Part shown: piece after piece, positions 11,516-13,723 of the stretch
Layout: each line of letters opens with the position of its first letter
Position numbering within the stretch: position 1 is the stretch's first letter
From: an uncultured Gemmatimonadota bacterium
GTDB lineage: Bacteria > Gemmatimonadota > Gemmatimonadetes > Gemmatimonadales > Gemmatimonadaceae
DNA length: 64,000 bases
Direction of reading: 5' to 3'
Assembly (NCBI GenBank): GCA_902826615.1
Contig: CADEFN010000001.1
Span: 1,240,001 to 1,304,000, forward strand
Notes under the pieces: generated by a model
The model's database searches: none
Told to the model about the DNA's origin: nothing
Seen by the model: only the letters and a program-made list of their open reading frames with translations
Position numbers and translations under genes: made by a program

Positions 11516-11974
11516 TCATCGTCGCAGGCGTCCGAGCCGGCTGACAATGACCGTTTCGGCCGCCGATCCACGTTGCACGATGATGCGGGTGTTGGCGGCG
11601 CCGTAACCGAGCCCACTGGCCGACCAGGCGATGGAATCACGCGTCGTTTGCAGCGTGACACCAAAGATTTCGTGCAGGGCATGTGTGGCGAAGGTGTCGG
11701 GCCCAGCCGCGAGGTGCAGGACGGCGCCCGTCGTATCGATATGGAGCGCAATCCGCTGGGTGCGCTGCCGAGCCAGGTGGCGCGCGTCCGCCGCCGCGCG
11801 TACCACAAGCGACGCCGCCCCGTCAGCCGCCCACTGGTCGCGGGCGTGCCAAAGCGGGGGCAGGGCCAGAGCCGAAAGGACGCCAACGATGACGAGAACG
11901 AGCACCAGCTCTGGAAGAACAAAGCCGGCCTTTCTGCGGGCGCATAACGAAGCGGCGAGGGGCCGTTGGGTCAT
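11516..11974 (-). CDS. type IV pilin / GspH-like pseudopilin
   Basis: 152 aa with a prepilin leader and cleavage site RRKAG|FVLPE (Gly17, Phe18, Glu22), followed by a hydrophobic helix VLVLVIVGVLSALALPP, the standard N-methylated pilin stem. The C-terminal part has the short beta-rich domain of minor pseudopilins such as GspH/FimT. It would be processed by a prepilin peptidase at the inner membrane. No other secretion or pilus genes are nearby, so it is an orphan. It is divergent from the lipoprotein gene at 12093. Exact family (GspH versus FimU/FimT) is uncertain. Confidence 0.85.
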   Translation of the reverse strand: MTQRPLAASLCARRKAGFVLPELVLVLVIVGVLSALALPPLWHARDQWAADGAASLVVRAAADARHLARQRTQRIALHIDTTGAVLHLAAGPDTFATHALHEIFGVTLQTTRDSIAWSASGLGYGAANTRIIVQRGSAAETVIVSRLGRLRR

Positions 11975-12092: not shown

Positions 12093-12341
12093 ATGTCACG
12101 CCCGTCCCGTATTGCTTCGTCGCTGCTGATCTGCCTTGCTATGGGATGCGGGCTCCCGACGCGGGACGACATCGACATGGCTCAGACTGTGACCGACATG
12201 GCGCAAGCCGTTCAGGAGCTGCAGGGATCGCAGCAGGACCTGCAGGATCGCATCGATTCACTCACCACGGTGGTGTTGCGGCAGGATTCCGTGCTTCGGT
12301 CGATGGCCAACCTGATGGGCGCGCCACTGCCGCCGCGTTGA
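12093..12341 (+). CDS. small coiled-coil lipoprotein
   Basis: 82 aa from ATG MSRPSRIASSLLICLAMGC. The lipobox LAMG|C with Cys19 predicts a diacylglycerol-modified lipoprotein. The mature part is short and heptad-like (VTDMAQAVQELQGSQQDLQD, then RIDSLTTVVLRQDSVLRSM), predicting an extended trimeric or dimeric coiled coil, like the N-terminal helix of CpoB/YbgF or Lpp. A longer in-frame upstream extension is rejected because the signal peptide begins here. The selenoprotein gene starts 20 bp downstream and is probably in the same transcript, ending at the terminator at 12603. Function unknown. Confidence 0.8.
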   Translation: MSRPSRIASSLLICLAMGCGLPTRDDIDMAQTVTDMAQAVQELQGSQQDLQDRIDSLTTVVLRQDSVLRSMANLMGAPLPPR

Positions 12342-12361: not shown

Positions 12362-12598
12362 ATGCACGTTCGCATCGAATACTGCACCGTGTGAAACTAC
12401 GAACCGCGGGCCGCCAGTCTGGCGGCCGAGGTTCGGGGGGCATTTCCCGAAGCCACGGTTGAACTTGTCCCCTCTGGTGGCGGACGGTTCGAGGTGGCGC
12501 GGGATGGCCTCATGATTTTCCAGAAGTCCCTGCTGGGTCGTCACGCGCGCCCCGGCGAAATCGTGCAGCTGCTGCGAAGCGACCCTTCGGTGTCCTGA
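12362..12598 (+). CDS. selW: SelW/Rdx-family selenoprotein (in-frame UGA = selenocysteine)
   Basis: 78-aa Rdx-family (SelW/SelT/SelH) thioredoxin-like protein. The frame reads MHVRIEYCTV, then TGA at 12392-12394, then NYEPRAASLAAEV and on to a TGA at 12596-12598. Reading the first TGA as selenocysteine gives YCTVU, the CxxU redox motif, in the exact family position after the first beta-strand. The remainder matches Rdx: an Arg-Ala helix, FPEATVELVPSGGGRFEVARDG and IFQKSLLG. A SECIS-like hairpin starts 6 nt after the UGA, and an intrinsic terminator starts 5 nt after the second stop. Sequence conservation past the UGA argues against a pseudogene. SelA, SelB, SelD and tRNA-Sec are not in the window. 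Role: presumably thiol redox. Confidence 0.88.
12400..12435 (+). promoter_or_regulatory. bacterial SECIS element of selW
   Basis: Outer stem CGAACC (12400-12405) pairs with GGTTCG (12430-12435). Inner stem GCCGCC (12410-12415) pairs with GGCGGC (12421-12426). The apical loop is AGTCT (12416-12420). The short internal loop can form further G-C pairs. The loop lies 22-26 nt from the UGA and contains the G-U that bacterial SelB hairpins such as E. coli fdhF (loop GGUC) present. The structure is visible; SelB binding is inferred. Confidence 0.75.
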
Positions 12599-12602
12599 CG
12601 CG

Positions 12603-12628
12603 ACGCTCCCAGCTCGTCGGAGCGTTTT
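12603..12628 (+). terminator. intrinsic terminator after selW
   Basis: ACGCTCC (12603-12609) pairs with GGAGCGT (12619-12625) around a 9-nt loop, followed by TTTTCTCTTT. It sits between the second stop of selW and the ATG of pfkA. Confidence 0.8.
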
Positions 12629-12643
12629 CTCTTTCGTCCTACT

Positions 12644-13723
12644 ATGCGCATAGCTCTCTCCACCGGTGGCGGCGACGCCCCCGGTCTCAACGCGGTGATC
12701 CGGGCCGCCGTCCTCTCTGCGACCAGCCGTGGCTGGGACGTACTCGGCATCTGCCGCGGCTACTATGGCCTGCTGGGTGAGGACGACATCATCCCCCTCA
12801 CACGGAATAGCGTGCGCGGCATTGGGCATTTGGGGGGGACGATCCTCCGCACGACCAACCGCGGGAATCCCTTCCATTTTCCTGTCCTGCAACCCGATGG
12901 GTCGTATCGCGAGATCGATCGTTCGGGTGAACTCATGGAAAATGCCGCGCGGCTGGGCATCGATGCGATTCTCACCATCGGCGGTGACGGATCGCTCAGC
13001 ATCGGGCAGAAGCTGCATGAGCGGGGCATGAAGATCGTCGGGGTGCCCAAAACCATCGACAATGACGTCAGTGGCACCATCACCACGTTCGGGTTCGACA
13101 CGGCGGTGAACACGGCCATCGAGGCACTCGACAAACTGCACACAACCGCCGAAAGTCACGATCGGGTGATCGTGATGGAAGTGATGGGGCGCAACGCTGG
13201 CTTTATTGCGCTGCACAGCGGCGTGGCCGCCAGCGCCGACGTGATCCTGATCCCCGAAATCCCCTTCGATATCGAGAAGGTGTGTGACAAGGTGCGCGAG
13301 CGGGACGGCGCCGGGCGTCACTTCTCCATCGTGGTGGTCGCCGAGGGAGCCTACCCCGTTGGTGGGCAGGAGTCCGTGCTGGGCGACTCACTCCCGGGGC
13401 AGGCCACGCGAGTGGGTGGCATCGCGGGGCGCATTGCCTGGGAAATCCAGGAACGCACCGGCAAGGAGTCACGCTCCCTCGTGCTCGGCCACCTGCAGCG
13501 CGGGGGGTCCCCCACGGGTTACGACCGACTGCTGGCGATGCGTTTTGGAGGGGCGGCCATCGAGGCCATCGAGCAGCAGAAGTGGGGTCACATGGTGGCA
13601 CTGCAGTCGCCTCACATTGTGGCCATTCCCATTGCGGACGTGCTCGCCTCCCAGAAGCGCGTCGAGCTCAATCACGACATCATGCGCACTGCCCGCGCGT
13701 CGGGCATCGCCTTCGGCGACTGA
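12644..13723 (+). CDS. pfkA: 6-phosphofructokinase
   Basis: 359 aa, glycolytic phosphorylation of fructose 6-phosphate in the cytosol. Motifs: STGGGDAPGLN (phosphate loop), TIGGDGSL, PKTIDNDV, then MGRNAGFIAL and GHLQRGGSP. The combination of Gly in GGDG and Lys in PKTIDND is the pattern known from ATP-dependent enzymes of the mixed (group III) PFK clade. PPi enzymes normally have GGDD at the first site. ATP use is therefore the better guess but not certain. Start ATG at 12644 directly after the selW terminator, so it needs its own promoter, which I could not identify. Length is usual for the family. Confidence 0.95.
   Translation: MRIALSTGGGDAPGLNAVIRAAVLSATSRGWDVLGICRGYYGLLGEDDIIPLTRNSVRGIGHLGGTILRTTNRGNPFHFPVLQPDGSYREIDRSGELMENAARLGIDAILTIGGDGSLSIGQKLHERGMKIVGVPKTIDNDVSGTITTFGFDTAVNTAIEALDKLHTTAESHDRVIVMEVMGRNAGFIALHSGVAASADVILIPEIPFDIEKVCDKVRERDGAGRHFSIVVVAEGAYPVGGQESVLGDSLPGQATRVGGIAGRIAWEIQERTGKESRSLVLGHLQRGGSPTGYDRLLAMRFGGAAIEAIEQQKWGHMVALQSPHIVAIPIADVLASQKRVELNHDIMRTARASGIAFGD

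Follow-up and report, generated by a model that had tools for sequence, protein, structure and literature searches.

Gene, reading frame and in-frame UGA

In the genome of an uncultured member of the Gemmatimonadota (a 5.9 Mb assembly estimated to be 99% complete), a short reading frame meets a TGA at its eleventh codon and then runs on, open, to a second TGA, raising the question of whether the first triplet ends translation or is read as selenocysteine (Sec). The locus was examined in a window of 64,000 nucleotides, the whole stretch of DNA that was analysed, and coordinates refer to the window unless a contig is named. The gene and codon in question are:

12362-12598, + strand: selW-like (Rdx family) gene of 78 aa, a predicted selenoprotein with the in-frame TGA as Sec11 (profiles, homologues and AlphaFold model)
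12392-12394, + strand: UGA, predicted selenocysteine codon at the second redox residue of a CxxU motif (TGA in 68 of 69 orthologues)

Re-reading of the window DNA showed the sequence and coordinates given for this frame in an earlier note to be correct, with ATG at 12362-12364, TGA at 12392-12394, a further 67 codons and the stop TGA at 12596-12598. The product reads MHVRIEYCTV-U-NYEPRAASLAAEVRGAFPEATVELVPSGGGRFEVARDGLMIFQKSLLGRHARPGEIVQLLRSDPSVS, and the UGA occupies the second redox position of the CxxU motif proposed in that note (C8-T-V-U11, with Cys at residue 8 and U at residue 11). Judged from sequence, the apparent stop at codon 11 is almost certainly read as selenocysteine, which would give a SelW-type redox protein. 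The explanation as a whole, an Rdx-family SelW-like selenoprotein whose UGA codon 11 would be decoded as Sec via SelB and a SECIS hairpin, leaves us very little doubt; it is built on homology, a conserved UGA, RNA structure and machinery, from which the incorporation of selenium is predicted. Since the genome encodes every component needed for selenocysteine decoding, the gene is real, but of a known kind that ordinary gene finding can shorten or skip.

Protein family and predicted fold

With U entered as Cys, the product exceeded the cut-offs of three family models, namely Pfam PF10262 (Rdx; E=2.4e-17, 63.3 bits versus 22.6), TIGR02174 (48.9 bits versus 34.2) and NCBIfam NF041051 (93.7 bits versus a curated cut-off of 88, spanning 69 of 70 positions), which bears out the family membership suggested earlier. 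NF041051 describes SelT/SelW/SelH family (seleno)proteins and is named after Campylobacter, whereas the host of the present gene belongs to the Gemmatimonadota. A phmmer search of the PDB likewise matched bacterial SelW-related proteins (2fa8, E=4e-9).

An AlphaFold model built from 25 homologues had a mean pLDDT of 92.8, and its best Foldseek matches were SelW-related proteins of Agrobacterium, Pseudomonas, Vibrio and Streptomyces (top structures 2fa8, 2obk and 2p0g; TM 0.82-0.86), followed by MIEN1 and mouse SelW (2npb) and then by thioredoxins. These three solved SelW-related proteins share the fold of the model at 31-37% identity, and presumably hold Cys at the position of Sec11. In the model, C8-x-x-U11 follows the first strand (residues 2-8) of a thioredoxin-like fold. 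Going by its family, the product is most likely a small cytoplasmic thiol/selenol oxidoreductase.

Selenocysteine machinery in the same genome

Absence of the decoding machinery can be set aside as an objection because tRNA-Sec, selA, selB and selD, the four genes to which the earlier note had pointed, were all found in the same genome (G000), each above its curated cut-off. The tRNA-Sec scored 66.3 bits (Rfam cut-off 47) and was assigned the anticodon tca (UCA) by ARAGORN, while selA (E=5e-157), selD (E=2e-113) and selB (E=3e-102) were recognised by their profiles, selB including the C-terminal SelB-wing_3 winged-helix domain, the SECIS-binding part of known SelB. SelA would make Sec-tRNA-Sec using selenophosphate supplied by SelD. 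By analogy with the Escherichia coli system, SelB-GTP carrying Sec-tRNA-Sec would bind the loop of the SECIS hairpin placed 6 nt past the UGA and bring Sec to the ribosome, and the UGA at codon 79, to which no such hairpin is assigned, would end the protein. The product modelled above would then present a C-x-x-U redox pair on its thioredoxin-like fold.

The selD gene also holds an in-frame TGA (RLTQFARCAG-U-AAK; L018 1501-2421, corresponding to C3:14927-15847 of the same genome, minus strand) and directly adjoins the tRNA-Sec gene on contig C3. Aligned to solved bacterial SelD, this TGA coincides with the catalytic Cys17 of E. coli SelD, within the RLTQYSHGAGCGCK motif, and by that alignment selD is a predicted second selenoprotein gene of the genome. 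For formate dehydrogenase-N (TIGR01553), which is often a selenoprotein in bacteria, neither a match above cut-off nor an in-frame TGA was found.

SECIS hairpin

Just past the UGA lies the following element, which was assessed by covariation, RNAalifold, loop codons and the published criteria for bacterial SECIS (bSECIS) elements:

12400-12435, + strand: bacterial SECIS hairpin within the coding sequence

Its first base is the sixth nucleotide past the UGA. A lower stem (CGAACC 12400-12405 with GGTTCG 12430-12435) and an upper stem (GGCCGCC 12409-12415 with GGCGGCC 12421-12427) enclose the apical loop AGTCT (AGUCU, 12416-12420), and the conserved core spans 12409-12427. RNAfold gave -25.7 kcal/mol for 12400-12435, and the 57-nt fold energy was within the lowest 0.7% of the window. 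The published bSECIS model has a G at one of the two leading bases of the loop, a usual loop N1-G-[G/U]-N-N2 with N1 and N2 paired, a UGA-to-loop distance of 16-37 nt, an upper stem of 4-16 bp and an energy of at most -7.5 kcal/mol (PMC13188914). The present hairpin, which the earlier note had proposed to check as a bacterial SECIS, agrees with this model in every respect, with the loop A-G-U-C-U, a spacing of 21-22 nt, a 7-8 bp stem and a stable fold, but possesses in addition a lower stem that its relatives do not share.

A fold of this kind could be the mere by-product of a GC-rich coding sequence, in which case the UGA would be a true stop releasing a peptide of 10 residues. High-GC stretches often fold, and approximately 5% of the TGA triplets found anywhere in the window precede a comparable 8-bp hairpin, so that the hairpin by itself is weak evidence. 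The relatives provide evidence against this explanation. Over 68 sequences, the upper stem (alignment columns 18-25 with 29-36) was paired in 96.1% of cells, the pair at its foot alternating between GC, AU and CG in step, with both sides changed in 23 sequences, and two-sided changes occurred at three further upper-stem pairs. The covariation score of the whole structure exceeded those of all 500 shuffles and of all slid controls, and RNAalifold recovered the same upper stem unprompted.

Codon choice in the loop points the same way. Where the loop encodes Ser, the codon was AGT in 39 of 39 sequences versus 4% of the Ser codons elsewhere in the same genes, and where it encodes Gly, GGT was used in 21 of 22 versus 13% elsewhere; the nominal binomial P for these codons overstates their independence because the sequences are phylogenetically related. 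This pattern points to selection on RNA and is hard to obtain by protein selection. When compared with synonymous re-codings, the stability of the hairpin was in modest excess (P 0.016 for the present gene), the mean stability z across 69 sequences being -0.98 versus -0.37 for a control stretch. With compensatory changes, strict loop bases, forced rare codons and a protein conserved past the UGA all standing against it, we give a chance fold ahead of a true stop hardly any credence. Homology, covariation and codon choice together put the SECIS hairpin far beyond chance.

The two-part architecture described in the earlier note is present here with both stems, but among relatives only the upper part is conserved. 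The lower stem was paired in 59.5% of cells and, set against the 96.1% of the upper stem, was rejected as a conserved part of the SECIS. A scan of the selW-like locus against Rfam returned nothing meaningful.

Conservation and co-occurrence across the phylum

Homologues of the selW-like gene were identified in 192 of 395 genomes of the phylum Gemmatimonadota, nearly every one among the matches listed having exactly one internal TGA; the closest named relative found was locus L052 from a Gemmatimonadaceae MAG, the sole hit of a contig scan for related loci. At the DNA level we inspected 69 orthologues from several families, of which 68 have TGA as the Sec codon, the exception (in genome G129) having TGC, and in the orthologues read the frame past the UGA is open and its residues are conserved.

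TGC and TGA differ by a single base and one relative does have the TGC form, hence a pseudogene or a sequencing error, in which a Cys codon had turned to TGA and the gene was dead or misread, has to be considered. The near-uniform TGA across families and the intact, conserved downstream frame speak against this, as do the Sec machinery of the genome and its second TGA-containing gene, selD. For practical purposes a sequencing error can be dismissed, since nearly all genomes with a homologue have the TGA in common, and taken together we regard a dead or misread gene as exceedingly improbable.

Presence of the gene was associated with the decoding tRNA. A clear tRNA-Sec (defined as E < 1e-9, genome tallies transcribed by hand) was found in 172 of the 192 genomes with a homologue versus 107 of the 203 that have none (Fisher P about 1.5e-16). 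Sixteen of the 20 homologue-bearing genomes lacking a clear tRNA-Sec have a full-length selA and two have a partial selA; the homologues of the remaining two (G129 and G052) are stop-free. These data bear on a further possibility, that the UGA is translated but not as Sec, through near-cognate readthrough or reassignment of UGA to Trp. A hairpin could in principle stimulate readthrough. However, tRNA-Sec, SelA, SelB and SelD are all present, the UGA sits at a catalytic Cys/Sec position, UGA also terminates the same ORF, and the gene tracks tRNA-Sec and selA through the phylum, and we consider decoding as anything other than Sec very improbable. The proposal in the earlier note that this organism decodes UGA as Sec is supported by the Rdx family membership of the product, the full machinery in the genome and the agreement of the hairpin with the bSECIS model.

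The single Cys form (L053 and L102; G129:C1:2897497-2897703) belongs to a genome comprising one contig with 100% completeness, in which there was no selA match and no tRNA-Sec above cut-off. The TGC in this genome fits a lineage that has lost the Sec trait because neither selA nor tRNA-Sec was detected there, and G129 likely represents a natural Sec-to-Cys reversal following that loss. Its SECIS loop bases are also altered, being GCGTT rather than AGTCT or GGTCT. One genus of the family (g4, including G019, G039, G074 and others, with several single-contig genomes) is seemingly without selW, selA and a clear tRNA-Sec, and the trait has probably disappeared from this genus, in contrast to the greater part of the phylum, which retains it.

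Three genomes (G157, G159 and G183) have a strong selA (E below 1e-160) and no tRNA-Sec above the Rfam cut-off, the best candidate being one of 41 bits in G157 (the filter scored 150 candidates per genome). Either their tRNA-Sec is divergent or it was missed by this first-look filter. The selW of G157 contains the TGA and is accompanied by the hairpin (L105; G157:C1:2878199-2878414). More distant Rdx homologues in some genomes (L111, L114 and L117), about 34-36% identical and with no in-frame stop, are apparently Cys-type paralogues.

Relation to known bacterial selenoproteins

Selenoproteins of the SelW type have been on record in bacteria since 2005, and the present gene therefore adds to a known kind. 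In the Sargasso Sea set of that year, SelW-like CxxU selenoproteins outnumbered every other family (PMC1088965), and in Epsilonproteobacteria some SelW genes were wholly overlooked by genome annotation (PMC4607533). The present gene shares with both sets the Rdx/SelW family, the CxxU motif and a SECIS just past the UGA. It differs in coming from another phylum, and in belonging to an orthologue group in which Sec is usual, with only one Cys copy among the 69 read.

The earlier note had also suggested that Sec decoding is unreported for bacteria of this type. In the literature searched, no explicit report of Sec in Gemmatimonadota was found (including PMC5029168, a large survey of 2016, PMC4807772, PMC3281104, PMC8318568, PMC8938466, PMC9312934, PMC13188914 and PMC12013277), and roughly half of the MAGs of a deep-sea study were reported to have selA/B/D, the phylum being unnamed in that passage (PMC8938466). 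To that extent the suggestion stands, but it is tempered by the public genomes of the phylum, and because the trait is plainly visible in these we regard Sec decoding in the Gemmatimonadota as under-described rather than surprising. The part with some news value is its breadth: of the 395 genomes of the phylum, 290 carry selA (213 of 286 among those of good quality). By these genomes, selenocysteine use is widespread in a large and mostly uncultured phylum, whose predicted selenoproteins include SelW and SelD, and in many of its genomes ordinary annotation can truncate the selW-like gene at the UGA or miss it. The findings are of use for selenium ecology and for genome annotation, the biochemical principle being already known.

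Terminator, promoter and neighbouring genes

The selW-like gene is flanked by the following features:

11516-11974, - strand: FimT/pseudopilin-like upstream gene (no Pfam match)
12093-12341, + strand: small lipoprotein-like gene immediately upstream, a conserved neighbour (tblastn matches at 10 of 30 relatives' selW loci; no Pfam match)
12603-12635, + strand: possible intrinsic terminator past the second TGA, the true stop (RNAfold stem; not called by the consensus scanner)
12644-13723, + strand: pfkA, 6-phosphofructokinase, conserved downstream neighbour (Pfam PF00365, E=7.7e-100)

An intrinsic terminator past the second stop had been proposed. Its stem (ACGCTCC 12603-12609 with GGAGCGT 12619-12625, with a mixed T tract) forms in RNAfold, whereas the consensus scanner, which has a loop limit of 8 nt, did not call it, the loop being 9 nt; a terminator downstream of 12598 is plausible. 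A consensus scan of the selW-like locus returned no promoter.

The pfkA gene adjoins selW at 22 of 30 relatives' loci, a neighbourhood that we offer as a lead only to the physiological role of the protein. Sec-containing SelW might be the ancestral default in the Gemmatimonadota, held in a conserved block before pfkA, where the pairing might reflect redox control of glycolysis, and the selA-bearing lineages G157 (with its UGA-containing selW), G159 and G183, which have no canonical tRNA-Sec match, could mean a divergent tRNA-Sec; this combined proposal is speculative and we think it unlikely. The FimT-like gene lies beside selW in many relatives, in which the order is DEAD helicase, FimT-like gene (opposite strand), lipoprotein, selW and pfkA.
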